Under the pieces are notes generated by a model. The model was not told the origin of the DNA. It saw only the letters and a list, made by a program, of their open reading frames with translations, and made no database searches. 64,000 nt of DNA from Artocarpus heterophyllus (Eukaryota > Streptophyta > Magnoliopsida > Rosales > Moraceae): positions 27,198,459 to 27,262,458 of the forward strand of contig CM046331.1 in the NCBI GenBank assembly GCA_025403435.1, in the 5' to 3' direction. The translations under genes and the position numbers were made by a program. This document shows positions 9,019 through 34,955 of this stretch, piece after piece (position 1 is the first letter of the stretch; every line of letters begins with the position of its first letter).

Positions 9019-9898
9019 ATGGCGGGTAGGGGAAAAACCTTGGGATCTGGAACCGCCAAGAAGGCCACCTCTCGGAGTAGCAAGGCCGGCTTGCAATTCC
9101 CAGTCGGCCGTATCGCGAGGTTCTTGAAGGCCGGCAAGTACGCCGAGCGTGTCGGCGCCGGAGCTCCGGTCTACCTTGCTGCCGTCCTTGAATACCTAGC
9201 TGCTGAAGTAATTTCTCTCTTCCGGTCTTTCTCTAAACATTTTCGCTTTTGGTTCTTGTGATTTTGTGTTTCTAGCTCATGTTCTGTCCTGTTCTGAATC
9301 TAGGGTTAGGGTTTTGAATTTTTCCTTAATTCTGCAGAATTCGACACTGCTCATGAACTCCAGCGATAATGCGTGTGATGAAACCTTGAAATTATTGGTT
9401 TTTTTTTTTGCGCTTTAATTGCTAACAAAACGCTAAATGTGATTTAGATCTTTGCCCTGTTTTAGGTTTTTTTCCCTTTTTTCTTTGGAATTTTTTTTAA
9501 AAAATTTAATTTTGTAATTAAATTTCTTAATTTTCAAATAAGATTGAATATATTTCTTTATACAGAAGTTATCATTGTTCATTCTTTCTCAATCGATTAT
9601 CTGTTAATTTTAATCTTTTTCCTAATCTAAATTAGGGTTTCAATTTAGGCTAATTTTGATGAATTTGTGTGGATTTCAGGTTCTAGAGTTGGCTGGTAAT
9701 GCTGCGAGAGACAACAAGAAGACCAGAATCGTTCCTCGCCACATCCAGCTGGCGGTGAGAAACGACGAAGAGCTGAGCAAGCTTCTCGGTGACGTCACCA
9801 TCGCCAATGGCGGTGTGATGCCGAACATCCACAACCTTCTTCTCCCTAAGAAGACGGGCACTTCCTCCAAGGCCTCTGGCGGTGACGACGACTCCTAA
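9019..9898 (+). CDS. H2A: histone H2A (canonical, replication-type)
   Basis: Two exons, 9019-9207 and 9680-9898, with a 472-bp intron (donor GTAATT, acceptor TTTCAG), encode 135 residues. The N-terminus [11 protein letters not shown] and core motifs [39 protein letters not shown] and [19 protein letters not shown] are diagnostic of plant H2A, including the acidic-patch glutamates (EYLAAEV...ELAG). The tail ends [16 protein letters not shown]. It has no SQEF motif (not H2A.X) and no SPKK motif (not H2A.W), and it is not H2A.Z, so this is the canonical form packaged into bulk nucleosomes. The intron sits at the AAE/VLELAG junction. The start at 9019 is chosen over upstream in-frame codons because MAGRGK is the conserved mature N-terminus and lies downstream of the TATA box. 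No lesions were seen. Confidence 0.97.
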
Positions 9899-12721
9899 AC
9901 TCTTTCGAAGAAGAAAAAGAAGAAGAAAACAACAAGAAGCCCTGATTTCTCTCACAATGTCCTATTGATTTCCACTCGCTGTCAATGGATCAAGCTTTCT
10001 TTTTCCTTTTTAGGGTTTTTTTTAATTAGTTGCTTGTTTTTCTGTTTGTGGGATTTTAGTTTTATTAGGTAGTTTTTAGGGTTCAGTTTTAGGGATTGTG
10101 AATACGATTATCTTCTGTTACTTCAAAATATATTTCTTTTTTCCCTTTCATCTTTTGTAACTTTCTGTTTCCATTTTTCATGTGGGTTTTACATACTGAC
10201 TGAGAACGCCGAAACATTTCGCCACTTGATCAATATTATCCATCTTTTTTTTTTTTTTTTTTGGTCGTTTCGATGTGGTTTGCAACTTCGTAAACTGAGA
10301 ATTGAATGTAGTGTTTTAAGTAGATTATCGGCCGTTTCTAAGTTAATGTCGTTTTTACTATCAAACTTGAGGGATTTGAAGGAGCGAATTTTAATGGGTT
10401 GGAAAAAAAAAGGGGGTTCTTTTTGAGGCTTTAGATTCAAGCGAGAAATCTCTTCAAATTTTTTTTGACTTTTGAGTTCTAGTGTTAATTTGGCGGCGTT
10501 GGAGTTAACTCAATGTCCTATTACTAGGTTACTGATTCTAGTGATTTCAAAATATTTTAAATTGCCTTTTTGTTTGTTAAGAGAGTTTTTTCACAAAAAA
10601 ATTGAATTCAAATCTTTAGCGGGCCCTTTGTTCTCACATGTGATTTTTTGATGTTAACGGACACGTTTAAATTTTAATAAATCCTCTGTAATGTTATACT
10701 AGAAATATAAGTAACTTCTGACGGAGTTATAGAGATGTAACTACAGAATCACAAACTAAGTTCATATTTGGTCAAGTGATCCACCGGTTCTACCGAAAGA
10801 CCTTTAAAATGGCGTAATCTCATCGGCTCTTGACCAACCAATTTGCTGTCATTGTCCTTTAGATGTATTAGTTACATGTACAATTCCATTTTTGTTTTTT
10901 ACTGACTGAAGTCTCCATTCGCCATCAGCAAATGACCTCGTCATCTGTAAACGACAATTAACAACCAACAGAACCTCAGGTAAAAAGGAGGAAATGAGAC
11001 AACCCATTTGTTGATCACGAAAAAGGAAAGTCAAACAACCTTGTGAGTAGTAGAAATAAGAAAAAGTAAAAGCGAAGCTATTTTGACTTGTACTTTTGCT
11101 CGGTCATATTTGCATTTCAACTTGACTTCCAGGTTATAAGGAATTGTCGAACTTGGCGAGTCAACAAATCTGCAGAAGTCAAAAGTTTGCCAGAAATTCA
11201 TCAATGAGGCGTGAATCAGTGCTATAGAAGCACAGTTATGCTGCAGAGAACTTAAGTGACTACGCTTGGCTAGCAGCCCAATCTGATTGAGACAATTTGG
11301 CAGGATGCCACGGTTATCAAGTCTTGAATTAATGCCACATTTCCAACGTGAGTACAAATTCATGTCCCCATTGGGATTTTTCTAGTCATCTTTCTCTCCT
11401 CCACTGCCTGCCTCTTTTTGTGGTGCGAACAAGACGATGGGGACGTATGATACGATATTGAAGGACTACAGAGGCAATACTGTCGTCAAAATTCATTATA
11501 ACCTGACAATGAATTAGGGAAGAAAATAAAAGAAAGATAATTAAGGAAATAGTAATTTTGCCATGTTACTAGTGAAATTCATTTGTTCTGAACACGTGAA
11601 CTTTAATTTCCAACTTTACATCATTGTTTTAAAAATTTGCGGATGTTAGATTCGATCGAAATTGGACACAGTGGCCTTAAACTAAGATAACTATAAAATA
11701 AATTAGTCAAGAAAACCCATATATAATTTTTTTTTTTAATTTTCCAACGTTAAATCAACTATAATCTATATCAAAGGAAAGTTTTAAAAAAATTTATATC
11801 CGTCAAACTTGTTTGTTAGTACAATTAATACAAAGTTGAAAATATGTAGTCAGAGCAGGATTAGATCACATTATTTATAAAGAATTCCTTCCCTTTTGTG
11901 TCATGAACAGGAATTAGATTTTTCCATCAACTGCATGTTAGGTATAAAATATTATTTTCAGCAAAAAAAAAAAAAAAGTGCATATCAAGGGTAATGAATG
12001 AAAGTACTAATTTAGGATCAAAGACTTGTTTGAATCATTTTAAGAGACAAGGATTAAAATCAAGTTTAATTTGTTTTCTTTTATAGTTCATGTGTACTTC
12101 AGTTTCAATTGTCAAATATGGAATACAGATCTAGTGCCCTTAATGGGACCACATACATGTTGACATGAAACAAAACTTTTCTTCAAGGCTAAAAGCGCAA
12201 TTTTCTACAAAGGAATAGGAACGGAATTTACTACATATTTGAAGGCTTCATAGCCACGTAAAAGAAGATTTTCAACTAAATCTCGACTATCTAGCTACAA
12301 ATTTCTTACTCCAAAAAAATAAAAACAAAAGAATCAACAAACTAACTTTTTACAAAGAATCAAAAGATACAGAATAAACGACTTACTAATCACATGTTGG
12401 ACAAATTCATGAGGTCCATCACAATCCACTCCCCAAAAACCACCATAAAACAATGATCTTTTCCACTTTTGATGTTGGCTGAAACGGTTTCCATTAATCG
12501 TCTCGAAGGAGTTCTCTTCATTGACAATGGAGAAGCATCGACGAAATAACCGACCGTGTTTCGCATTGTTCAATCTTCTACCATTATAACAACTGCCTGA
12601 ACAAAGAGAGAGAAAAGAAAGGAAAGAACTGATCAAAACTTCCGAAAACATTCACAAGCAATACAATATCTTAGCATGTTAGAACCGAGCATTCAATCTC
12701 ATACCTTTTCCTAGATGAAAC
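9899..12721. other. intergenic: H2A 3' region and unassigned DNA
   Basis: The first 300 bp are probably the H2A 3' UTR (CT- and T-rich). A poly-T tract lies near 10243-10261. Between about 10760 and 11480, and again at 12334-12651, base composition is less AT-rich and there are minus-strand ORFs of 61-110 codons with no family I recognise. The second block could be formin 3' UTR sequence, since it lies just past the formin stop codon. No other features were found. Confidence 0.4.
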
Positions 12722-15700
12722 CTATGGACCCTCGTCGTCCGAACTAGAATAGTCCACTCGTCGATCTGTGATAGCCGGGAAAAGCCGCTCACGTAGGTCA
12801 ACAGGGGACTGGCGGGTATCAGAGGAAGATGTTGGGGCTGCATGCTGGCGGAGATCGGAGGAAGATGTTTCCTTTTTTGGTACTTTTGAGGGCTTTCTTG
12901 GTGCCTGTCTCACCTCTTTGCAAACCTTATCTAACATTAGCAAGAAATCTCGCACGATAATAAACAAACGTAAACCTTCATCCTTCCCTGCATTTCCATG
13001 GAAATAGTCGCCGGTGCTCTTCACTAGAGCTGTGATTCTTTTTTCTTCTTCTAAAAGCCCCGAGATTTCTACCTCAGCATTCTGCACAAAGTTCTCGAGT
13101 GTTTGATGGAAACCACCATCTTCTTCCAAGCTCTTCATTTCTGAATGGAGAAATTTTCCGGGTTTTTGCCAACGACTGACCAAGTTTGGCAACAGTTCCT
13201 GTTAAGCTGTCAGCATCCAAAACTGCTGCTCTCTTGACATTCTCAAGTTCGTTTCCCAAACCTGAAACTACTTGAAGACCAAGAGAGCGATAATGCTCTT
13301 CCATATCGTTTGAAGCTTCTTCAAGGAGATCGTCTGATTTGATGCTGGAGAGGCTCTGGCTTTCTCTGGCTACACGAACAGCTCTTATGCCCTCGGAGCG
13401 GATAATCTCCTGAACAACAAAGTGCAAGAGCGTTGTCTTGCCATCTGTTCCTCTTACATCTGACAGTTTTAAAAGGGTGTCGAGTTTGAATGCTTGTGCA
13501 CCGCCATCGAAATGTCCCGTCGTTCATGCGATTTCCAGTTTTGAGAACAGCTTCCAGAAGCTTGAGGAAAAGCCTGCTATTTCTGAGTTCCTTGCAAGCT
13601 ACCTGCAACAGTGCACCGATATGCCATATGAGACCACTACTATTAATGATGCTTGAATCATAATATGCCGCTTCCATATCCAACCAGCAACCAACTGTGT
13701 GATGTGACCGAATGACTTTAAAGATCTTAAACATGGCAAATGGATGCAATCTATGTGTCCTATATGCTGAAGCTATCGATAATAACATTGTTATGGAGAC
13801 TTAGTCATAAGTTGAAATCCTATAAATATGTTTTGGAGACTTGAAGATAAAAGTCAAAATGGAAGTAGAGCATTCTTTGCCAGTTTGTTTGCAAAGTGTT
13901 TTTTAATTTTATTTTTTGTTATTTTTTAGTTTTTTCTTTTGGTCTAAAGAAGTTTTCACTATAGGCTTGGTCAATACCAACTCCAATCTTACTTTGACAA
14001 AATTGTTATTCAAGTGTTTATACAATTTCCTCTTGCATTGGCCTACTATCCTTTCCCCCTTTTTTCTTCTCTTTACTTTTAGGTTTAAAAGTAGTATAAT
14101 GCAATATGTCATCAGCAACGTATACCTCCTTGTATTATGCGTGTAGTCAATATTTCATACTATATTAGCACAGTCAAAATTTAGGCCCTTTTATGTCTCT
14201 ATAAGATAGGTTTTAATGTTGTTGCCAGATTTTCTCACTTCAAACTTTCTAGCAGTTTATAAGAGAAACTTTCATAAAAGTGGTTGAGATAAAGATTTGA
14301 AACACAAAATCAAACAATTCAAGAGAGATAAATTATGGTAATCCAATTGACTACCTCTAGAGTTGCAAAGGACTCTTTAGCGATGGCAACCTCCTCGGTA
14401 AGAATAGACATGAAAAGCAATGCTTCCAGCCGCTTAAAAGCAAATGGAATGTCAATTAACACTTTAAGGAACCGCTCAGCAGGCCCAAGTTGAGAAAGCT
14501 CTCCATTGAACATTCTAAGCTTTAGTTCTTCATCCGTTGTTGGTGTCATTTTCAACAAGCTCTGAAGGAATTCCGAGGGAAGCTCATTTCCTATTCACCA
14601 AGACGTACAACAAATCAGTTCAAAACATGCTCAGAAGTACAATAATTAATACAATCAATGTACAATTTCTATTGCATTCCCATTTTCTTAATAATTGCTT
14701 CTTCTTAACGAAACCATTTTAGTACGAGTGTATAAATGAAGTATAACTACCACTCCACTGTGTTATATATCGTCAATCAACAAAGAGCATGAATTAGAAT
14801 TTCCAAGCCAGAATCATCATAGCCTCTTTTTCCATCTTTCCTTTCCACATCTTAGATTTATTACAGATAGAATTGCTAAAACATGCTCTCTCAACAGTAA
14901 ACAGATAAAGGAATTTATATTTTCCTGCATGTAAATATCTAAAGTGTAGAACAATCACTTTTCAAATTGTGTAGGTAGTCACATAATCTTTCTTTCATGA
15001 TACATTCATATGTCTGTCCTATTGCATTAGATTATCCAAGAAAAATCAGGAAAAGAAGTTTACCTTCACGAAGTGCATCACAAACTTCTTCTATTCTCAC
15101 ATTCAATGCCCGTAGAAGAATTGCTAAATTTTGCGATTTTTTTGGATCTATAATCTGAATAAACTGGGGTGAAGGATCCTGTAATGCCGACTCTTTTTTC
15201 TGTACACTCTTACCTTTATCGGTCGCAGCATAACCAAAAAGAGTTTCTATCATATTCTCATCAAACCTGCCAAATGAGAATGTAACAAAATTCAGAAAAA
15301 TACTAAATCCAATAACTCACGCGAGCGAAGAGCAAAACAAGTTTGCAACTTACTGAAACGATCCAGATTTAATCTGATGCCAAACCATTGAATGATCAGG
15401 GTTGGCTAAAACTTTATCCCAAAAAAAGGGCTTCAGCTTGGCTTTAGGAGCATCAGCTTCACCCTCCAAGTCAGCTCCCTCACTAGAAGAAGCGTTTAGT
15501 GGATGTTTAGGTGCAGGAGGTGGAGGCCTACCTCCCTTAGAACCTAGGGGCAATTGAGGAGGTCGAGGAGGAGGAACACCACCTTTTGGAGGCGGTGGTG
15601 GTGGTGGGCGAGGACCGGTGTTGGAGCCAGGAGGCAATGGAGGTGGTGGCGGAGATGGCCTAGGAGCAGGAGGACCTAGGCTACCAACGGGTTTCAGGGA

Positions 15701-17696
15701 GGGTGGTGGCACAGGAGGGGGAGGAGGACCAGGCTTGGTGGAAGGAGGGGGAGGAGGAGTAGGCTTGCTGGAAGGAGGCTTAAACGAAGATGGTGGTTCA
15801 GGAGGGAGGGGATCTGCCCTGCCAGGAGGCGGCTTAAGAGGAGGCATTCCCATAGGGGCGGTCTCTACCCTTCCGGGTGGAGGCTTTAGAGGAAAACTTG
15901 GCACCTGTGAATTAGTATTATTGGATATATCAAATGTTTTAAATTCAGAAGCACCTGTGCTAGACACGGTATTATTAAGTGAAGTATGGACAACACTAGA
16001 TGATGTATTAAAATTTCCATCCAAGGAAGACCCCATTCTGTGCTGACTTGAGTTATTCCCAAATGATTGATGCCCCAGCCCCTCTTCTTTTGCTGAATTC
16101 CCAAATGCATAGAACTTAGGTGATGATGCTGCAAGATCAAAAATTAGAAATGATTACTTAAACAGTGACGGACAATAATAGATCGTGATTACAAGACACA
16201 AGGGAGATGCATACCGGCAGAGAAGTCGCTTAAGCTTAGGCTTAGTAAGGGCCTCTCGTCGTTTTGTCTTACTTTGGAGCCAGGTTTGCAGAATCCACCA
16301 CAACATAAAAAAAACAATAATACAACTACGAATGTCACAGATGCAGTTACCGCAACAGCAATTACAACTGATCTATGGCTATTACTTGTCTTATCTGGTT
16401 GTGCATCTGGCCCAGAACCAGCAACGGAAGAAGAGTTTTCAGCAGGCGGAACTCCCAAATTTGCATCATTGATATCGGGTGGAAAATATGGTGTTCTCGG
16501 AGATGGTGCAGGGGGATCAGTACTAGGAGGTTGAGAAGGGGAAGGTGCCAGTCCTGGAGTGGGACTAGGCGCTCCAGTTGTAGGAGCTGGAGTGGGTGCA
16601 ACCGAGATGGTCTGAAGATATCTTCTAGGAACATAATCTCCTGGAAATATGGACTCAAAATACTTGGAATACCATTTCTTAGAGCTGCTGTCTTCTCCGG
16701 AGACGTGAAAGGGAAGATTATGGTTTTGTATACAACCCAAAAGGATTTGCTTCACCTGAGGATCAAGAAAACTGATTGCTTTCCAAATGTTTTCTCTTGC
16801 TAGTGACAGGCTCTTTGGATCAATTTCATGTGTTCTACTGAATCTTTCCTCTGGAAAGCTTAAGTCTAGTTCTTGAACAAATTTCTTCAAATGGATCACA
16901 TCTAACTTGCAATAAAACCACAATTCCTCTGCCTGAAATCCATAAAATTGTGATAAGTTTCATGTCTACTCATGTGCATTCAAATGTACTACAGTATAGA
17001 TGCAATCATGAATTCACAAATACCAGATTTTCTCACGTCTTAACTTAAAATTAGAATGGAGACAAATGACACATAAAAATGGATGAAGAAAAGAAACATA
17101 AGAGGCGTTCAAAATCAATTCATAACAATGAAAAGTGAACCAAAAAAGAAATAGATTTTGAGTTTAATATCAAGATAATTTGCTCCTCAGCAGGTATATG
17201 ATCTCCAACAATCTTTTTTTTTCACCTAATTCATTAGAGGTCCTCACTGATTGGTATAAGATTCTATGCAGGAAGTTAAAGCTGATTCAACCTAACACAG
17301 TCACAACGATTTCTGATTTTAAAATTGAAACAGAAACAGAATGTGGTCCCATAAAATTTCCACCTGAGCTATGCTGTTAATTTAAATTCAAATACAATGA
17401 TCAAGCCACCTAACATAAAATAAATTCATCAAATGCAGTACTCAAAATGTAAAACTAGCCATTCCAAATCTTTTACATATAATGAAACCCACATATATAT
17501 ATATATATATAAAGTTATTAAGATTTCTCACCAAGTTGGCATCAATCTCCCCAGAAGCTGGATCAACCAGTTGCCGGAGAAGCACTTCCTCGGTGGTCTT
17601 CTTTTCATCTGAACTTCTAGAAGCCCAAGCACATAGCAGAATAGCCAAAATTATGAAACAACTTGTCCTTAAAAGACCCATATGTTTTTCAACCAA
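12722..17696 (-). CDS. class I formin (signal peptide, TM, FH1, FH2), with two apparent frameshifts in the last exon
   Basis: Six exons on the minus strand: 17532-17696, 16215-16932, 15354-16128, 15064-15266, 14355-14590 and 12722-13602. All introns are GT-AG and phases agree. Translation starts MVEKHMGLL; the second Met (17681) may be the true start of the signal peptide [19 protein letters not shown]. Exon 2 carries a conserved extracellular region ([29 protein letters not shown]), a Pro/Ser-rich wall-facing stretch and a transmembrane helix ([20 protein letters not shown], about residues 244-268). Exon 3 encodes the poly-proline FH1 (profilin binding) and the FH2 start ([10 protein letters not shown]). 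Exons 4-6 encode FH2, which nucleates and caps actin, including [20 protein letters not shown]. The family role is actin nucleation at the plasma membrane. In exon 6 one extra base near 13507 and another near 13151-13157 break the frame; ignoring both gives about 990 residues ending SSSDDEGP. As written, the protein would stop within FH2. Confidence 0.88.
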
Positions 17697-23038: not shown

Positions 23039-23394
23039 CTAACTATAACGCTCAAGAAAATTTATTAATTAAAATCCAGAATTGATTTGGATTTAATTAA
23101 TGAATTTTTCCCTTGACGATGAAATGTAGAGTATTTACAGATAATATTAATGTGTGTTATATATGGGAATTTGGTGCAATTTGAAATATTTTTAATGTAC
23201 AAATTTTATGAGTTTAAATACTCAAAAATTTCTGAAAAATCCTGAAATTTATATCACATTAATTATAATCTTATGGTATAAATTAATAAAAGGTAAATAT
23301 GTTGTTTAAAGTAGAAAGTCATGTCATGGTCTAAAACAGTATAAAAGTATCACATATCAGTCAGTAAATTGTTAAAGGTTTCTATGTTTATAAT

Positions 23395-25751
23395 TGTAAC
23401 GCCCCTATATGGGGGTTAACAGTTTTTAATGAGATAAAATAAAAATAAATAATAAAAGTAAAACCTTAAAAATAAAATTTGCCCGGGACTTAAATGAAAA
23501 CTCTCAACTCAAAAATAAAAATATAAACGATAAATAAACCACAGTTTAATGTAGCACCTTAAATTTAATAGTATAAACTGTTGTCATCATCATTTTAACC
23601 CTCAACACATTGTAATACAGTCACAGAAAGTAACAATTGATGCTTACATTATCATGAAGAACATTCTCAACAATTGAAGCAGTCCCAATGTAATATAGCT
23701 ACATCACTTCCTCAATTATATTTCTCGTAGCCACCTCACACTTAGTGAGTCCTGAAAAGATAAAAATATAAGGAAATGAGCGACACTATGCTCAGTAGAG
23801 AAAGCCATTACTCACCTTTAGGTTTTTATCATTACCACATTAAAACCTGCATGGTTAGTAAGTTACATCATATTCCAGATTATGAGGTTTATTATGATCA
23901 CATCTTATGGATACCGTAGTTAATCATTACCAAGTGTCATAATTACACATTTATACAAATATTACCAATCATCATTGTTCCTAGGTATCCATGTTAAATT
24001 GAGTATCACTCAACTCATCGAAACCCAAATGGGCGCACTTGATCACCCTATAAACATTCCAAGGGTGTTCCGGTGAGGGGACATCAAGCCCCGAGTCCTC
24101 ACCAAATCGATTCCTGTACAGTGTGTTCTGGGACTTTCAACCCAAGGAAGCGTCATCGCCTTCCCCCTATTTTACCTTTTAGGGTATTCATGCCCAAGGA
24201 CGTAACCGTCGCCCTCTTCATGTCTCACAATTTCTCTATATTGAATCATTATTAATAGAGTTAGTTTTCCTAACCATGCTTCTCAATTTATAACATGTGT
24301 CAATTCATTATGTTCCTCGCCGTACAATACAAGACGAGTCCATGTCATAGTTTCATATGTGATACTCATATAATATTAGTTCAACATAGATATATATATT
24401 GCGGCAAAACAATCAATTTTAATTCTATAAAAACCTCACAAAAGATGAGTAATAGAATCCCTACCTTTCAAGCTTATCAACAATCTTTTAATCCTTGAAT
24501 CAATTAACGTTAGCTCCATACTCCCTTGATCCTAAGGCGTGCATAAGGACAATTAAAACTAAAGCACAACATACAACTACATTCATAAATAAATCATGTG
24601 TAAACCTATCTTACTAGTATGCCATTAAAGCTTTTATATAAATCTCTTTTGAATACCACAGTAAACAATTTTTGTCTTAACATAATATAAAATGTGAACA
24701 AGTAATCTATATGTTTTAGTCCCTAATAAGATTCATCAATCACTTAGGATAATATTGGAAAGGTTGCAAGACATTAAAGAATTAGGTGGTGAGCAAAGAT
24801 GGGTTCTTGGTTCAGGTTAGCAGCTGGTATACCATAACAAACTGGCAGATTTACTAGTTTTCAATACAAAAATTGAATAATTCTTAGAAAATAAAATACA
24901 ACTCCGATTTAGGTTTATGATAGCTCGTTAGAAAGCCTAGGATGCTACTTTTCAAATATGCAAACCAATTCATAAAATTCATTTTAATTTAATCTTAGAA
25001 TTTCAAGAAATAACCACTGCCCATAGAGGTATTACAAAGTTTAACAATATAAATTTTCTGTCTAGGGCATATACACTTAGACTTCATACATATGCTCCAA
25101 AATAGCAACAAACGTATACTTAGGTTTAAGAACGCAAATTTGAATAATCCTTTAGTATAAAAGAAAATTTATAAATGAAAGACTAAATTTGTTCATAAGA
25201 TTCTAACCTCGGATTATGGTTAGTTGGAAGCTTGAAATAGCTTCAAAACAGGTTCCTTTACTTCGGTATGACTGAAATTCTTGCTCAAATGGAGGTGATG
25301 GTGGCTGATTTTTATGGCTGCCTTGAAGAAGTTCTCTAAGTATTTTGCTTCAGCAAAGAAATGAGAAGAAGAGTGTGGGAACCGTGGAAGATAAAGGAAG
25401 AAAAGATGAAGTCTTTGAAGAGAAGTGATAGAAACAATTATAGAGGAGACATGTTGAAGCATGTCACGGAGGAAATAAAGAAAATGAGGGTCAAGAGTAG
25501 TTGGAAAAGATATCCTTATGTCTCATCTAAAGACTTTAACACACATAATACCAATATGACATTTTTGAGATTTATTAGAAGTTCTAAGGCTTTTTAGTAA
25601 TCATACTAAATAAATATAGGAGAATTTTAGAAAATTTAAAAATAGATAAAAATAAATATTATAAAATAAATTTAAATGAAGCAATTTTTTTTATACACTA
25701 AAAATTAATTTAATTACCTCAATACCCGTTAGGAGAATAACGGGTGTCACA
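23395..25751 (-). mobile_element. solo LTR, family B, inverted, 2357 bp, TSD ATAAT
   Basis: On the plus strand it runs from TGTAACGCCCC to GGGTGTCACA, the reverse complement of the LTRs of the element next door. It is flanked by ATAAT (23390-23394 and 25752-25756). Over the 400 bp nearest the junction I count roughly 2% differences from the neighbouring LTR. It is 382 bp longer, because it keeps a segment between two copies of ATTCATAAA (24581 and 24968) that the neighbour has lost. It is a solo LTR, since no internal region is attached. Confidence 0.9.
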
Positions 25752-25756
25752 ATAAT

Positions 25757-27731
25757 TGTGACACCCGTTATTCTCCTAACGGGTATTGAGGTAATTAAAT
25801 TAATTTTTAATGTATAAAAAAAAAATTGCTTCATTTAAATTTATTTTATAATATTTATTTTTATCTATTTTTAAATTTTCTAAAATTCTCCTATATTTAT
25901 TTAGTATGATTACTAAAAAGCCTTAGAACTTCTAATAAATCTCAAAAATGTCATATTGGCATTATATGTGTTAAAGTCTTTAGATGAGACATAAGGATAT
26001 CTTTTCCAACTACTCTTGACCCTCATTTTCTTTATTTCCTCCGTGACATGCTTCAACATGTCTCCTCTATAATTGTTTCCATCACTTCTCTTCAAAGACT
26101 TCATCTTTTCTTCCTTTCTCTTCCACGGTTCCCACACTCTTCTTCATATTTCTTTGCTGAAGCAAAATACTTAGAGAACTTCTTCAAGGCAGCCATAAAA
26201 ATCAGCCACCATCACCTCCATTTGAGCAAGAATTTCAGTCATACCGAAGTAAAGGAACCTGTTTTGAAGCCATTTCAAGCTTCCAACTAACCATAATCCG
26301 AGGTTAGAATCTTATGAACAAATTTAGTCTTTCATTTATAAATTTTCTTTTATACTAAAGGATTATTCAAATTTGCGTTCTTAAACCTAAGTATATGTTT
26401 GTTGCTATTTTGGAGCATATGTATGAAGTCTAAGTGTATATGCCCTAGACAGAAAATTTATATTGTTAAACTTTGTAATACATCTATGGGCAGTGGTTAT
26501 TTCTTGAAATTCTAAGATTAAATTAAAATAAATTTTATGAATGTAGTTGTATGTTGTGCTTTAGTTTTAATTGTCCTTATGCACGCCTTAGGATCAAGGG
26601 AGTATGGAGCTAACGTTAATTGATTCCAGGATTAAGAGACTGTTGATAAGCTTAAAAGGTAGGGATTCTATTACTCATCTTTTGTGAGGTTTTTATAGAA
26701 TTAAAATTGATTGTTTTGCCGCAATATATATATATCTATGTTGAACTGATATTATATGATTATCACATATGAAACTATGACATGGACTCGTCTTGTATTG
26801 TACGGCGAGGAACATAATGAATTGACACATGTTATAAATTGAGAAGCATGGTTAGGAAAACTAACTCTATTGATAATGATTCAATATAGAGAAATTGTGA
26901 GACATGAAGAGGGCGACGGTTACGTCCTTGGGCATGAATACCCTAAAAGGTAAAATAGGGGGAAGGCGATGACGCTTCCTTGGGTTGAAAGTCCCAGAAC
27001 ACACTGTACAGGAATCGATTTGGTGAGGACTCGGGGCTTGATGTCCCCTCACCGGAACACCCTTGGAATGTTTATAGGGTGATCAAGTGCGCCCATTTGG
27101 GTTTCGATGAGTTGAGTGATACTCAATTTAACATGGATACCTAGGAACAATGATGATTGGTAATATTTGTATAAATGTGTAATTATGACACTTGGTAATG
27201 ATTAACTACGGTATCCATAAGATGTGATCATAATAAACCTCATAATCTGGAATATGATGTGACTTACTAACCATGCAGGTTTTAATGTGGTAATGATAAA
27301 AAACCTAAAGGTGAGTAATGGCTTTCTCTACTGAGCATAGTGTTGCTCATACCCTTATGTTTATATCTTTTCAGGACTCACTAAGTGTGAGGTGGCTACG
27401 AGAAATATAGTTGAGGAAGCGATGTAACTATATTACATTGGGACTGCTCAATTGTAAAGAATGTTCTTCATGATAATGTAAGCATCAATTGTTACTTTCT
27501 GTGACTGTATTACAATGTGTTGAAGGTTAAAATGATGATGACAACAGTTTATATTATTAAATTTAAGGTGCTACATTAAAACTGTGGTTTATTTGTCGTT
27601 TATATTTTTATTTTTGAGTTGAGAGTTTTTATTTAAGTCCCGGGCAAATTTTATTTTTAAGGTTTTACTTTTATTATTTATTTTTATTTTATCTCATTAA
27701 AAACTGTTAACCCCCATATAGGGGCGTTACA
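25757..27731 (+). repeat. 5' LTR of the cargo element
   Basis: 1975 bp, TG...CA. Just inside the start is a perfect 8-bp stem, ACCCGTTA / TAACGGGT (25763-25770, 25777-25784). It matches the 3' LTR base for base wherever I compared them, including three short ORFs. It lacks about 387 bp present in the inverted solo LTR. Confidence 0.95.
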
Positions 27732-27738
27732 GAATTTT

Positions 27739-27770
27739 TGGTATCAGAGCCTAGGTTCGGTTAACCTAGG
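27739..27770 (+). promoter_or_regulatory. primer-binding site and adjacent stem-loop
   Basis: TGGTATCAGAGC (27739-27750) is complementary to the 3' end of plant initiator Met-tRNA and lies 7 nt after the LTR. It runs directly into a perfect 8-bp stem, CCTAGGTT / AACCTAGG (27750-27757, 27763-27770), with a 5-nt loop. The first is the minus-strand primer site. The stem-loop may serve in packaging, dimerisation or priming (inference). Confidence 0.85.
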
Positions 27771-29222
27771 GAGTGTAGCACCACTTTAAAAAAATATATA
27801 TTTTTGAGATGGTTTTGAAGCTGAATTTTCATTGTCATCATCAAAATGAACCTTCACATTGATTTATACAGTCTAGAAGGATGTAACATGGAAAGGCCAT
27901 AGAATGAAAATATCAATAGTTATATGAGTACAATAATTATATAGAAGGAAAGTATTAATAGTTATGAGGGAATGATAATTATATGAAATGAGTTTATAAG
28001 TAGAATGCTTATGAGAGATTCGTATAATATTAGGATCTATAAGCATATCTAATTCGTATAAACGATGAGAAATTCGTGTAGATACGAGGATTTAAGAGCC
28101 TTTTGTCTCGTGAAAAACAATGAGAAATATAAGGCTTGATTTATTGATTTTAAAGTTTGACATAGATATGCCAAATTTTTCGTAATTGATTCAAACCTAA
28201 GTAATGATTATGTGTGGATTCGATGGAGCACATAAGTGTCAATGCCTTTTCTTAAAAGTTCTATATATTTGAGGAATATGATATAAGTTGGGAATCATGG
28301 TATTGAATCTTGAGAGAGATAAATGTTAGACTTTTGGTCTATTGAGACTGTGTAAAGTCTAGAATGCATGAATCTCAAAATTGAAATATTTCGTTACGTA
28401 CATTGTATTTAAGTGTATCAGTGAATCTTTTGGTTACCTAAGGTTTTGTTATATGAGGAAATTATATATTGTATGAGTAGAATTATGGGGATTGTAGATG
28501 TTCTTAAGTAGTAACATCAAGTGTCTTTGTTCATTGATATGGTCTACGTTGGAAGACGTAAATCGTATTGATTTCAAGGTTAGTCGCATTCTAAACCCTT
28601 GGTAGCAATGATGATGAATCCATTGATAGATGTTAAGTATTATGAATAACATATGGGTGTATATATTGTTCAATAAGGTTTTGATTAAAACAAAATTATT
28701 CGAGTTGCTGGAAGATTATGTTGTTATGAAATGATTTTAAATATCATTCAGGAAGATCCTTGTTGTCGTTAAATTAGATTTGTTGTTCATAATTAACTTT
28801 ATCTATAGTGGGCTTTGAATTGGGTTTAAGATTCATACGAATTGGTTTTCAATTTTATGTTTGTTATTTAACTCGTTCTAAATGTGTTAAGGCCCGAAAC
28901 AACCTGACCATTTTCAACTTAGAACATTTGGGCCTAGTTCAAATCTTAAATCAGTTTGATTCACACTGTCTCTCCCACGTGGTCTCTATACGTGTCATAT
29001 ACAGTGGTTTAATTATTGTTTACATATACGTTTACTGTGCGTAAGACCTTATTTCTCCGAGTTCACTTTTTCTCTCTTAATTTGTTATTTTTTCTCTAAA
29101 TCGCAAATCCTCTTCTTTTTCATTAAAAATTCTTCTTTTCCTCTAAAAGAAGAAGGAATTCTAGGATTCTGCAATTTACTATCTTAATTTTTCCTTTCTA
29201 TTTACTCTTCTTTCATCTCATC
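27771..29222 (+). other. non-coding interior of the cargo element, leader to first ORF
   Basis: There is no gag-like reading frame, and stops are frequent in all frames. Near the end are a G-box CCACGTGG (28975-28982) and ACGTGTC (28990-28996), then a CT-rich, T-rich leader (29060-29222) just before the ATG at 29223. This looks like a promoter plus 5' UTR, possibly acquired with the ORF or evolved there (inference). Confidence 0.5.
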
Positions 29223-29744
29223 ATGGACCCAAAGTACCAACACATGAGAAAGTATTTCCCATCACTCTCCCAAAAGATTCTCAGAAAGAAATACAAGGCT
29301 AGAATTACTCGGTTGTGGATTCTTATGCGTTTTGGTATCCCTTGTGATGTGAGAATGTTAATAGAGGGGAAAATCCGTCCGAGTGACTTTAGTCAAGATG
29401 TCGGTTTACCAGGAACAGGTACCAGTCGTAGTGCAATGAAAAGAAGAGCTCGTGCCATCGTGGTCGCTTGTAACAAATGTGGAAGACAAAATTGTAACGG
29501 TAAATGTACTTCACCTGGTTATATGTCTACGAATAGAGAGGATAAAATAAGGTTTTGTAGGAATGGACTTTCAAAGGAGAACTTGGATAGCATCCATCCT
29601 CCTCTCCACGGTCACCCTAGTGGATATGTTCAAGGAGCTATTTTTAAACTCTGGCCTAAATTTTATACAGAAAGACAACGCCTCAGGAATATGGTATTTC
29701 TAGATCCTGTTTGCCAAGCCATAAGAAAACTAGATGGGAAATAA
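29223..29744 (+). CDS. 173-aa basic cysteine-rich protein resembling carla-type viral nucleic-acid-binding protein
   Basis: Intact single-exon ORF inside the retrotransposon. The N-terminal third is basic and hydrophobic, including a helix-like RLWILMRFGIPCDVRMLI (residues 30-47). A Gly/Ser segment follows (GTGTSRSA), then a basic block KRRARA (73-78) and a finger C-x2-C-x4-C-x3-C (Cys 83, 86, 91, 95) followed by TSPG. A His/Pro patch (IHPPLHGHPSG, 124-134) lies further on. The order GxSxxA, basic block, CxxC finger, PG, downstream HP matches what I know of the cysteine-rich nucleic-acid-binding proteins of carlaviruses and relatives, which bind nucleic acid and often suppress RNA silencing. 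The similarity is by motif only; finger spacing differs. Alternative: a derived gag zinc knuckle, though gag uses C-x2-C-x4-H-x4-C and no gag domain is visible. The G-box and leader lie just upstream; the LOG-like ORF follows after 604 bp. Confidence 0.6.
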   Translation: MDPKYQHMRKYFPSLSQKILRKKYKARITRLWILMRFGIPCDVRMLIEGKIRPSDFSQDVGLPGTGTSRSAMKRRARAIVVACNKCGRQNCNGKCTSPGYMSTNREDKIRFCRNGLSKENLDSIHPPLHGHPSGYVQGAIFKLWPKFYTERQRLRNMVFLDPVCQAIRKLDGK

Positions 29745-30348
29745 GTCATCGCTCTATAAAGGTTATTTAGTCTTTACTTATTTGAAGCAGTTTTAGCTGA
29801 TGTTCAACAGTTTGTGTTTTTCTTTTACTCAGAATATTTGCTTTTGTGTTTGAAATAATTGTGATTATTAGATTGATACAGTAAGTGTTAATATCTTATT
29901 TAATTTATGATTTTCTTAAATATATATATAATAAAATATATTATCTTATCAGACACGTTACATACGGTACAGTAATATGTTTGAATTTTGAAAAGCTTAT
30001 CCAGATATTTCAAGATTTGTGTCTCAAATTTCAAAAGTTCTACAGTATTTGTCGTTTATATTAAATTTCTAGACTTGGTGTATATTTGTCAAAAAGTCTA
30101 CAGTTGTGTCATGAGGGTCTTCTGTCAAATTGTTCTCAATTGTCAAAAGTTATACAATTAGAGTCTAATCTTTTTCAAAAAGTGAATCAGATTTTCTGTA
30201 AACTATCAATCACCTTATCTTACTTTCTTATCCGCACAAGATTTTGTTTAAATCTTTGGATTACCTTTTCATTACCTACTCGTCTATCTCTTTAGCCCTT
30301 TTTGTATATTTCTCATCTTTAAAAACTCATGTAGATCCCGAAGTCTAA
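29745..30348 (+). other. spacer between the two cargo ORFs
   Basis: 604 bp, AT-rich. CTCTATAAAGG, a TATA-box-like word, lies at about 29751, just after the first stop codon. There is no splice pattern linking the two ORFs that I can support. How the second ORF is expressed (own promoter, reinitiation or splicing) is not shown by the sequence. Confidence 0.4.
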
Positions 30349-31038
30349 GTGGAGCAGACATTAAGCAACCACTTCTATAAACCAAATATGTCTACCTCCC
30401 AGTCCACGAAGAAAATAAAGAATGTCTGTGTCTTTTGTGGTTCCAGCCTTGGAAAAGATAAAGCTTATTTAGAAGCTGCAAATCACTTAGGGCAAGTCCT
30501 AGCACGCAAGAAGATTAACATAATCTATGGGGGTGGTAGTATAAAAATGATGGTAAATATGGCACTAGCAGCTAGGTCTAGTGACGCTACTGATGTAAGA
30601 ATTTGGCCTCATATTCCAGTTGAAGGAAACCTTTGTAAGGAAGCCATAGGTAAGGGAGAAGGAGTCAGGAGTATCCCTAAAAATTTTAAAGACATAATCT
30701 ATAATTCCGATGCTTTTATAGCATTACCTGGTGGTCTAGGTACTCTTGAGGAAATATTTATAGTTGCTTGTGGGCAATTGTTGGGCTTTTATTCCAAACC
30801 TTTGGGACTGCTGAACGTAAAGCGTTTTTATGACGGTCTTTTGAAATTTCTAGATTACGCTGTGGAAGAAAACATCACTACAGAATCGGAGAGACAAATC
30901 TTTGTCACTACTTCAACAGCTGAGGAATTGATAGATAAAATGCAAATCATACATCCAGAATCCGACACTGCAACATCCAAGCTTGAATGGGAAAGGGAAA
31001 GCCGGGAGCGGCCAATTGATTTGAATCTCCATCTGTAA
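30349..31038 (+). CDS. LOG-like: LOG-like protein (cytokinin-activating phosphoribohydrolase family), intronless, catalytic Arg apparently lost
   Basis: Single-exon ORF of 229 codons; an internal Met at 30388 (216 aa) gives the more typical LOG N-terminus before VCVFCGSS (residues 27-33). It keeps the Rossmann-like fold signature: YGGGS (60-64), DAFIALPGGLGTLEE (121-135) with the PGGxGTxxE nucleotide-binding/catalytic motif and its Glu, and KPLGLLNVKRFYDGLLKF after it. LOG enzymes release free-base cytokinin from nucleoside 5'-monophosphates. Two departures matter. The segment usually reading QRKAEM, which supplies the catalytic Arg, here reads about KNFKDI. The usual GLMG after YGGGSI is replaced by KMMVN. 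So it may be inactive, altered in substrate, or act as a decoy subunit. Plant LOG genes have several introns; the lack of any here fits capture from mRNA. No stop or frameshift is present. Confidence 0.9.
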   Translation: MEQTLSNHFYKPNMSTSQSTKKIKNVCVFCGSSLGKDKAYLEAANHLGQVLARKKINIIYGGGSIKMMVNMALAARSSDATDVRIWPHIPVEGNLCKEAIGKGEGVRSIPKNFKDIIYNSDAFIALPGGLGTLEEIFIVACGQLLGFYSKPLGLLNVKRFYDGLLKFLDYAVEENITTESERQIFVTTSTAEELIDKMQIIHPESDTATSKLEWERESRERPIDLNLHL

Positions 31039-31979
31039 TCTTTTTGTTTTATCTTTGGCATGTAGGCATGTGTGTCCGTATTTCGTGTGTTACGAATAAC
31101 CGTTTACCTTGTATTCTGTGTTTCTTGTGGTACGTCGTTGATCAATCTTTTAGATTCATTGAGCCTAATGCCGGGATGGCTGGATACGGAGTACTTGATG
31201 CTCTCGAAACGCATCCTTCTTAAGGTCCGATCTTTTGTTTATCGATGTTTTTGTATCCTATAAGCATGCATGATATGGATAGCTGGTATACGGAGTGCCT
31301 TGTACTCTCGAAACGTATCCGTATTATGTTTGTAATGTGTAATATTCTGTTAATATTATGTGGAAGTACCAGAGTCAGTTATGGGGATATTCCATATGAA
31401 ATATGAGTATATTATTTGGATTGAATGTTTGTGTAATGAGGATAGCTGTTTAATGAAAAATATGCCGGGTATGTTTGCAACTCTGAGATTCCGTTTAATA
31501 TCTCTATGAGTAAGTTTAATGTATAGTTTTGAATAAAAGCGTTTGTGATATATGTTTTATGATTATGTTTTAGTTTATTAGTTGAGGTATGAAATCAAAT
31601 ATATTTGACTTTTCCTTACTCAAAAAGGAAAAGGAACCTAAAGATGAAGTATATAAAATTTCTCTGGCAATCTCCTTAAATGTGATTGTAAATCACAGTC
31701 CATGGACAATGAAGGACCGGAATCATGATATGGTCAATATGTATGCCTGATCAGATTCTTAGACTATTATACGGTGTTATAAGTTGAAACTTGTCAGAAA
31801 TACTCTTATTGAGGGATTTAGGAGTAAGATTTATTATGCAAGTAAATAAGTGGAAATACGATAACTTAAATTTGGAGGACAAACAACATTAACGGTTTAG
31901 ACTCAGAATTGGAATCATAGTGGAATCATAATTTTTACTAGTATTGCTAGAATTGAAATTTCGAGGACGAAATTTCTTT
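31039..31979 (+). other. 3' interior of the cargo element, with a two-copy structured motif
   Basis: Non-coding. Two related 42-43-bp copies, 31175-31216 and 31278-31320, share GCTGG(A/T)ATACGGAGT and CTCTCGAAACG(C/T)ATCC. Within each, GGATACG-type and CGTATCC-type halves can pair, so each may fold into a stem. The rest is AT-rich. It may be LOG-like 3' UTR sequence or an element signal. Confidence 0.55.
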
Positions 31980-31993
31980 AAGGGGGGTAGAGC
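31980..31993 (+). promoter_or_regulatory. polypurine tract of the cargo element
   Basis: AAGGGGGGTAGAGC directly abuts the 3' LTR start (TGTGACA at 31994). It would prime plus-strand DNA synthesis. The upstream words TTTCGAGGACGAAATTTC are typical of Tekay/Del-type elements. Confidence 0.88.
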
Positions 31994-33968
31994 TGTGACA
32001 CCCGTTATTCTCCTAACGGGTATTGAGGTAATTAAATTAATTTTTAATGTATAAAAAAAAAATTGCTTCATTTAAATTTATTTTATAATATTTATTTTTA
32101 TCTATTTTTAAATTTTCTAAAATTCTCCTATATTTATTTAGTATGATTACTAAAAAGCCTTAGAACTTCTAATAAATCTCAAAAATGTCATATTGGCATT
32201 ATATGTGTTAAAGTCTTTAGATGAGACATAAGGATATCTTTTCCAACTACTCTTGACCCTCATTTTCTTTATTTCCTCCGTGACATGCTTCAACATGTCT
32301 CCTCTATAATTGTTTCCATCACTTCTCTTCAAAGACTTCATCTTTTCTTCCTTTCTCTTCCACGGTTCCCACACTCTTCTTCATATTTCTTTGCTGAAGC
32401 AAAATACTTAGAGAACTTCTTCAAGGCAGCCATAAAAATCAGCCACCATCACCTCCATTTGAGCAAGAATTTCAGTCATACCGAAGTAAAGGAACCTGTT
32501 TTGAAGCCATTTCAAGCTTCCAACTAACCATAATCCGAGGTTAGAATCTTATGAACAAATTTAGTCTTTCATTTATAAATTTTCTTTTATACTAAAGGAT
32601 TATTCAAATTTGCGTTCTTAAACCTAAGTATATGTTTGTTGCTATTTTGGAGCATATGTATGAAGTCTAAGTGTATATGCCCTAGACAGAAAATTTATAT
32701 TGTTAAACTTTGTAATACATCTATGGGCAGTGGTTATTTCTTGAAATTCTAAGATTAAATTAAAATAAATTTTATGAATGTAGTTGTATGTTGTGCTTTA
32801 GTTTTAATTGTCCTTATGCACGCCTTAGGATCAAGGGAGTATGGAGCTAACGTTAATTGATTCCAGGATTAAGAGACTGTTGATAAGCTTAAAAGGTAGG
32901 GATTCTATTACTCATCTTTTGTGAGGTTTTTATAGAATTAAAATTGATTGTTTTGCCGCAATATATATATATCTATGTTGAACTGATATTATATGATTAT
33001 CACATATGAAACTATGACATGGACTCGTCTTGTATTGTACGGCGAGGAACATAATGAATTGACACATGTTATAAATTGAGAAGCATGGTTAGGAAAACTA
33101 ACTCTATTGATAATGATTCAATATAGAGAAATTGTGAGACATGAAGAGGGCGACGGTTACGTCCTTGGGCATGAATACCCTAAAAGGTAAAATAGGGGGA
33201 AGGCGATGACGCTTCCTTGGGTTGAAAGTCCCAGAACACACTGTACAGGAATCGATTTGGTGAGGACTCGGGGCTTGATGTCCCCTCACCGGAACACCCT
33301 TGGAATGTTTATAGGGTGATCAAGTGCGCCCATTTGGGTTTCGATGAGTTGAGTGATACTCAATTTAACATGGATACCTAGGAACAATGATGATTGGTAA
33401 TATTTGTATAAATGTGTAATTATGACACTTGGTAATGATTAACTACGGTATCCATAAGATGTGATCATAATAAACCTCATAATCTGGAATATGATGTGAC
33501 TTACTAACCATGCAGGTTTTAATGTGGTAATGATAAAAAACCTAAAGGTGAGTAATGGCTTTCTCTACTGAGCATAGTGTTGCTCATACCCTTATGTTTA
33601 TATCTTTTCAGGACTCACTAAGTGTGAGGTGGCTACGAGAAATATAGTTGAGGAAGCGATGTAACTATATTACATTGGGACTGCTCAATTGTAAAGAATG
33701 TTCTTCATGATAATGTAAGCATCAATTGTTACTTTCTGTGACTGTATTACAATGTGTTGAAGGTTAAAATGATGATGACAACAGTTTATATTATTAAATT
33801 TAAGGTGCTACATTAAAACTGTGGTTTATTTGTCGTTTATATTTTTATTTTTGAGTTGAGAGTTTTTATTTAAGTCCCGGGCAAATTTTATTTTTAAGGT
33901 TTTACTTTTATTATTTATTTTTATTTTATCTCATTAAAAACTGTTAACCCCCATATAGGGGCGTTACA
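31994..33968 (+). repeat. 3' LTR of the cargo element
   Basis: 1975 bp, same ends as the 5' LTR and colinear with it at an offset of exactly 6237 throughout. No difference was found in the portions compared by eye. Followed by the target duplication ATAAT at 33969-33973. Confidence 0.95.
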
Positions 33969-34955
33969 ATAATCCATTAGTTGATGGAATACAGTATAGA
34001 AAGACACAAAAAAAGAGTATACGGTATAGTGTAATTATATCAATAGAGCAAAAACATAAATATATTGGATACTATATTGGTATTAAAACAGGTGGGGAAA
34101 AGTGAATTATTATATCATGGACTATTTAAATGTATATTTCCTCAACTAACGTTATAGGAAAAATACAGTGTGATATGCAACTATATTGTGTAAAGTTTGT
34201 TGGGACCCACTATAAAATGCCACCCAAAAGGGTGGAATTTTACCAAACAAGATGTGGCCAGTTTCTACCATGGCTTTTGAGCCAAAATTTACCACAAAAA
34301 ATTCTATGGTAGTGACTATGCATGGTAAGTCATCAAGTTGCAATTAATTATACTTAGAATATAACATTTTTTCATGTAAATTAGAACCAAAAATATTTCT
34401 TCTCCTTCCTCCTTGGTTCGGCAGCCCCTAGAGCTCTATCTCCCAAATTTCTTTGGTCAAAAATTTAACCCAGAAATCCACCTTCCAATCAAGAGTGAGA
34501 CCAAGATCAAGTGCGAGGTTCAAGGAAAGACAGTTTTGGAAGGTAAATTTTAGACTTTCTTTATGTGTTTCTAAGGTTTTCTTTGGGTTTTGAAGGGATT
34601 TTGATGTGAGTCTTTTTGTTATGACTTGTGTCTAGGAAAAATAGACAAGATCAAGTCCTTGTGGAGACTCACAAACTCGTAAAACCTTTTGGCAAAAACC
34701 TTAACCTTGCCTTGAATGTTTTTTTTTTAAATGAAATTTTGAGTATATTTTGTACTACATATGGACTATGGCATGTTAAAAGAACATTGTGATATGTTTA
34801 TGTGATTTGTTTTGTGCTTAGTAATGACATGGAGTAAGTAGAAACTAGGGTTTATGTGCTTGAAAATCAAATTTGAAAAAAAAAATATGCATAATGTAAA
34901 GTTTGGATGATCTTCCAAAAAAAAAAATTTTTTTGACATGTTCAAACATGATTTA

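Follow-up and report, generated by a model that had tools for sequence, protein, structure and literature searches.

Long terminal repeat (LTR) retrotransposons that cannot move by themselves are usually regarded as silent freight, and the classes known as LARD and TRIM comprise non-autonomous LTR elements that are non-coding. Additional open reading frames (ORFs) with a LOG domain were reportedly described by Steinbauerova in 2011, in Athila-like elements. Citrus and Populus have Gypsy elements with extra ORFs that encode a LOG (YgdH) domain; the consensuses of these elements were collected by reverse transcriptase (RT), so that they have pol (PMC9289625). Foreign coding sequence within an LTR element is likewise found in Bs1 (PMC7264820) and in an orchid Gypsy element with an AlkB demethylase, the latter keeping pol with RT in its ORF1 (PMC9289625). 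Here we describe an LTR element located at positions 25757-33968, plus strand, of a window of 64,000 nucleotides (the whole stretch of DNA that was analysed) from jackfruit, Artocarpus heterophyllus (assembly GCA_025403435.1, contig CM046331.1, positions 27,198,459 to 27,262,458). Like the Citrus and Populus elements it carries a LOG-family ORF in a plant Ty3/gypsy context, but it is devoid of gag-pol and has a Met-type primer site, a virus-like partner ORF and a degraded LOG active site. Compared with Bs1 and the orchid element, the family to which it belongs has two ORFs apparently under selection, lacks gag-pol and numbers thousands of copies.

Given that LOG-like ORFs in Gypsy elements are already known, the novelty, as far as our searches show, lies in the pairing, in the viral-type partner and in a gag-pol-less lineage of thousands. 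Within the open-licence literature (titles and abstract openings, among the matches listed), neither the ORF pair nor any carlavirus-type protein encoded by a plant LTR element was found described, nor was a gag-pol-less lineage of thousands found in print. A preliminary description of the locus, made from the sequence alone, had stated that no such element was known; as far as our searches show, this stands for the ORF pair but not for LOG-like domains, which are in print for Gypsy elements of Citrus and Populus (PMC9289625).

The window element is a complete LTR element. Its 5' LTR (25757-27731) and 3' LTR (31994-33968), both on the plus strand, are 1975 bp long, run from TG to CA and do not differ at a single position (0/1975 mismatches). 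They are bordered by a target-site duplication, ATAAT, at 25752-25756 on the left, where it doubles as the right flank of a neighbouring solo LTR, and at 33969-33973 on the right. The primer binding site TGGTATCAGAGC (27739-27750, plus strand) starts 7 nt past the 5' LTR and is of what we take, from its match to the tRNA end, to be the initiator tRNA-Met type, and a G-rich polypurine block, TTTCGAGGACGAAATTTCTTTAAGGGGGGTAGAGC (31959-31993, plus strand), ends at the 3' LTR. The paired LTRs, 5-bp duplication, primer site and polypurine tract of an LTR retrotransposon are thus all in place, and the completeness and recent insertion that had been proposed for this element are both borne out, the latter by the identical LTRs.

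The interior, for which we correct the earlier bounds of 27771-31979 to 27732-31993, has only two ORFs of note between the primer site and the polypurine block, both of them sense and intact as originally read. A 5' leader without a long sense ORF (27732-29222) is followed by ORF1 (29223-29744, 173 aa), a spacer (29745-30387), ORF2 (30388-31038, 216 aa from its ATG, or 229 aa as listed when an upstream GTG is taken as the start) and a 3' interior without a long ORF (31039-31993), all on the plus strand. Neither the leader nor the 3' interior gave a Pfam match among the ORFs scanned, and the scan of 10 further interior ORFs (54-88 aa) returned 0 matches, these being among the longer ones of 141 stop-to-stop stretches of at least 20 aa, so that short remnants are possible. 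The ORFs scanned contained no gag, protease, RT, RNase H, integrase or chromodomain, neither as the gag-pol of an autonomous Ty3/gypsy element, already reported missing, nor as ordinary remnants of it. Also, the element is set apart from the non-coding LARD and TRIM by its two ORFs, which appear to be under purifying selection.

Some further features lie within the element. A putative 64-nt intron (AAAG/GTGAGTAA ... TTTTCAG/G) is located in the LTR at 27311-27374, and the leader contains two 42-bp units, 79% alike, at 27899-27984. The G-box core CACGTG at 28976-28981, upstream of ORF1, and the pyrimidine-rich stretch that precedes the ORF1 ATG together represent a candidate internal promoter.

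The element is a member of a large family. The host genome (985,004,640 bp in 334 contigs) was searched with 40-mer probes allowing at most 3 mismatches, and the probes for the LTR-primer-site junction, ORF1 and ORF2 occurred 3785, 3094 and 3084 times, respectively, each with 0 occurrences of its backward control. A one-off insertion is ruled out by these genome-wide counts; the cargo is not unique to the window copy, and the suggested non-autonomous spread is supported, with about 3,000 copies. Taking 8.2 kb per copy, the family would occupy some 25 Mb (2.6% of the genome), although some copies are partial. Contig 1 has 54 exact LTR-primer-site junctions. In 44 of them an exact ORF2 probe follows at a distance of 2.6-3.4 kb downstream and in the same orientation, and the remaining 10, which were fetched, comprise nine with ORF1 sequence (one rearranged) and one that reads N. 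Hence 53 of the 54 lead into the ORF1/ORF2 cargo and one is unreadable; no gag-pol was seen behind any of the 54 junctions checked, the one reading N included. Eight junctions sampled along contigs 1 and 2 were all followed by ORF1, open over the part covered in five cases and broken in three; the sample leans young because only junctions without mismatch were examined. Five ORF2 copies in one orientation, about 6.6 kb apart, were observed at C9:16537152-16564373 of the host genome and probably form a tandem LTR-interior array.

The order of leader, ORF1, spacer, ORF2 and 3' interior is identical in all 25 further copies that were fetched (24 taken from the matches to ORF2 and one from those to ORF1), a set that again leans young because it was picked by best protein match. 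In 12 of the 26 copies (window included), those with both LTR ends in the stretch, there are 0-5 differences between the paired LTRs over 1961-1975 sites, and every readable pair of flanks (11/11) is a matching 5-bp duplication. The sampled copies are young, and the window copy is a recent insertion. A recent species-specific LTR burst has been reported for jackfruit, although called Copia there (PMC9791056).

The same interior is flanked by at least three LTR forms, namely that of the window, a form with an insert of approximately 378 bases and a form whose U3 is different. Five copies (L013, L014, L026, L030 and L033) share the interior and have a different LTR U3, of about 1.25-1.39 kb. Between the window leader and that of copy L011 there are 37 differences in approximately 1491 sites and 0 in the last 300, which gives a mosaic appearance; L011 is not an allele of the window insertion, as its flank is different. 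Given the several LTR forms and the mosaic-like leader, we infer template switching between family members.

Each ORF was tested for selection in copies chosen by the other ORF, for a fairer test, and the expectation was taken from the spectrum of mutations in non-coding regions of this same family, mostly C to T and G to A. For ORF1, the 24 ORF2-picked copies had 24 synonymous and 29 non-synonymous changes, an omega-like (dN/dS) value of 0.38 (P=5e-4), with a stop in 3 of 24. The corresponding value for ORF2 was 0.32 (P=0.017), from 9 synonymous and 8 non-synonymous changes in 10 ORF1-picked copies, none of which contained a stop; one more copy, which has an indel, was omitted. Similarly, no stop was present in 150/150 rows of the ORF2 search and 146/150 rows of the ORF1 search, best matches only. 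Both ORFs are apparently under purifying selection. It could be argued instead that they go back to a single fortunate source copy and are relics without a function today, the family being too young for their loss. The nearly identical LTR pairs mean that there was little time for decay in most sampled copies, and some frames are broken, as such an account would have it; however, amino-acid changes in both ORFs are rarer than the non-coding spectrum predicts, both ORF probes persist in about 3,000 copies, and the pair is found between several LTR types, which makes this account quite improbable. With selection on both ORFs, source copies must encode working proteins in order to spread, and therefore the ORF1 and ORF2 proteins probably act for the most part on their own coding RNA.

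Of 136 candidates from a database search with ORF1, 15 matched at E<=1, one of them named Hibiscus cannabinus, and an alignment of 14 sequences (the window and 13 of the 15 matches) was used to compare the family with the viral families Viral_NABP and Carla_C4 (Pfam PF01623 and PF05515). At E<=0.1, Viral_NABP was matched by 11 of the 14 (best 1.9e-7) and Carla_C4 by 12 (best 3.5e-7), and 0/10 reversed-sequence controls matched either. When seven relatives were scanned singly, four (P0122, P0124, P0126 and P0129) exceeded at least one curated cut-off. The ORF1 family is significantly similar in sequence to carlavirus nucleic-acid-binding proteins (NABPs), and its earlier designation as virus-like is upheld at the level of the family. 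The conserved core consists of a KRRAR-type basic block and C-x2-C-x4-C-x3-C cysteines, giving a zinc-knuckle basic protein that resembles the NABPs, or cysteine-rich proteins, of carlaviruses and allexiviruses (PF01623, PF05515) in the basic KRRAR block and in having zinc-knuckle cysteines. It differs from them in the C-x2-C-x4-C-x3-C spacing of its knuckle, in a long C-terminal part that is conserved but lies beyond the matched stretch and in being encoded by a retrotransposon. Among viral contigs considered as a source of ORF1, 74 stretches fit a pattern and none was confirmed.

The cysteine-rich p12 of chrysanthemum virus B (CVB) is described as a cytoplasmic RNA silencing suppressor and a nuclear transcription activator (PMC7588395). 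By analogy with this protein, ORF1 likely dampens RNA silencing. Two other roles deserve attention. ORF1 may substitute for Gag or nucleocapsid, a basic zinc-knuckle protein that packs the element RNA and passes it to a foreign Pol; no gag was found among the ORFs scanned in the element, and beside the invariant cysteine/basic core the C-terminal part (DPVCQFIRKLDGK), to which the viral Pfam matches do not extend, is conserved as well. Since the significant similarity is to viral nucleic-acid-binding proteins and not to Gag, we consider this role unlikely. A nuclear activator, which like CVB p12 would drive cell division or a state permissive to retrotransposition, is suggested by the double function of p12 as transcriptional activator and suppressor (PMC7588395, PMC9650830), but only the core region of ORF1 aligns, so that this activity appears distinctly unlikely. 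Dampening of silencing is the role that we retain as the likely one for ORF1.

ORF2 matches Pfam PF03641 at 2.8e-21, in agreement with its first description as LOG-like, and its structure model (pLDDT 78.8, uncertain around the pocket) matches the fold of the Arabidopsis At2g37210 structure with an E value of 9.3e-17. In CgLOG, Arg99 and Glu122 are catalytic, Met96, His97, Lys100, Glu125 and Trp129 are among the pocket residues, and exchange of the active-site residues for Ala, S19 excepted, led to an almost complete loss of activity (PMC4979012). At these positions ORF2 has retained Glu122, has Asn in place of Arg99, so that the catalytic Arg is lost, and has Ile, Pro, Phe, Ile and Gly in place of the five pocket residues in the order given. 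Among the best 120 of 7841 matches to ORF2, Arg99 is kept in 108 and Trp129 in 117. ORF2 breaks 19 of 69 near-invariant columns, compared with 0-10 for each of 32 relatives chosen from these best 120, and its TIGR00730 score is 125.8 versus 165-201 in six relatives. A quick tree places it on a long branch outside a canonical LOG clade of 12 rows, among rows that include Populus. The best 120 relatives (P0001-P0120) have PGGLG in 95 cases, PGGFG in 11 and Lys100 in only 14, and many of them are near-identical mutually, as expected for an element-borne LOG family.

The preliminary description regarded ORF2 as a cytokinin-pathway protein within a cargo that could alter the host; on this reading it would be a working cytokinin-activating enzyme. 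A LOG fold, the PGGxGTxxE motif and Glu122 are indeed retained, and purifying selection on ORF2 would fit such an activity. Nevertheless, Arg99 is Asn and five pocket residues are replaced, Ala at the active-site residues tested in CgLOG, again apart from S19, left almost no activity (PMC4979012), and the TIGR00730 score falls below the range of the six relatives. A cytokinin cargo in the enzymatic sense is unlikely because the catalytic Arg and most pocket residues are lost; we judge a working enzyme to be very unlikely and withdraw the assignment of ORF2 to the cytokinin pathway. ORF2 is a LOG-fold protein that, judging from its residues, is probably no longer a cytokinin-activating enzyme, yet is kept.

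Primers of the tRNA-Met type are reported for most chromoviruses and for copia, but not for non-chromovirus plant gypsy elements (PMC6317226). A search of the host genome with PF24626 (SH3_Tf2-1) listed 150 scored rows, some of them lying within open frames 1578 and 1554 aa long. This domain we take to lie at the end of the gypsy integrase, and for two of the 150 rows (L063 and L064), presumably Tekay by their C-terminal sequence, the 451 bases behind each were read. In both, a stop is followed by TTTCGAGGACGAAA..., and the polypurine block of the window matches L063 at 91% over 33 bp and L064 at 80% over 49 bp, in the latter running into the LTR start. There L064 continues into TGTAACACCC, like the LTR start of the window, and L063 has TGTAATGACT; the LTR start TGTRACACCC is thus common to the window element and L064, not L063, and past it neither of the two matches the window LTRs. 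The element therefore resembles Tekay/Del chromoviruses in its polypurine block (two families), Met-type primer site and 5-bp duplication, and in the LTR start for one of the two families, and the Tekay/Del-type terminal signals noted at the outset are supported by the polypurine block that it has in common with these two open-frame gypsy families of the host genome. It differs from them in that no gag, protease, RT, RNase H, integrase or chromodomain was found and in that its LTRs are unlike those of the two families sampled. Because the polypurine block matches these two families whereas the LTRs are different, trans-mobilisation by chromoviruses is likely, with a chromovirus-type backbone that would use chromovirus Gag-Pol.

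Taken together, we propose that the window holds a young copy of a gag-pol-less family of about 3,000 that borrows Gag-Pol of the Tekay type, with an ORF1 that shields against silencing and a LOG-fold ORF2 without cytokinin function, and we would give this composite an even chance of being correct. The element would be transcribed from its LTR, and its RNA packaged and reverse-transcribed in trans by the Gag-Pol of a Tekay-type chromovirus. ORF1 would bind RNA (or siRNA) and dampen small-RNA silencing as CVB p12 does, thereby shielding the element RNA, and the LOG-derived ORF2 may persist by virtue of a function other than catalysis, for example nucleotide binding or a partnership with ORF1. 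In a more far-reaching version, advanced tentatively and as rather doubtful, the family would be an anti-silencing hyperparasite that has abandoned all of its replication machinery, uses chromovirus Gag-Pol and owes its spread to two self-serving accessory proteins, a silencing suppressor of plant-virus type and a LOG-derived pseudoenzyme turned into its partner.

Several observations weigh against the proposal. The window ORF1 itself scores below both Pfam cut-offs (16.0 versus 23 and 12.6 versus 20.9), as do three of the seven relatives scanned singly, and reversed controls yielded chance matches to the cysteine pattern down to 1.9e-4. The structure model of ORF1 is poor (pLDDT 55), too poor for a fold search, and its frame is already broken in three of the eight junction-sampled copies. 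The selection test for ORF2 is small (17 changes), and the ORF1- and ORF2-picked copies were drawn from overlapping best-match lists. An autonomous partner with the same LTRs and gag-pol, as had been envisaged, was not found at the 54 exact contig 1 junctions or the two gypsy 3' ends, and both of these 3' ends share the polypurine block but only one the LTR start.

In the surroundings of the element, a solo LTR of the same family, of the type with the insert, lies at 23395-25751 on the minus strand (2357 bp, ATAAT on each side); it is approximately 2% diverged and separate from the window element. Together with its flanks (23390-25756) it directly adjoins the element, and ATAAT stands at all three borders, as though the two insertions shared one 5-bp target. 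Further upstream, an H2A histone gene was read from the sequence on the plus strand at approximately 9020-9897 of the window; the minus strand carries a formin-like gene at approximately 12700-16923, its formin exon region being closest to Morus notabilis (75%).

The family described here keeps, across thousands of copies, two protein genes apparently under selection, neither of them able to copy the element. This makes virus-type counter-defence by plant retrotransposons, and the action of such proteins in cis, directly testable. In ORF2, a LOG protein has been retained after the loss of its enzyme residues, and with ORF1, retrotransposons and plant RNA viruses apparently have a protein family in common, a point of relevance to the origin of the carlavirus suppressors.

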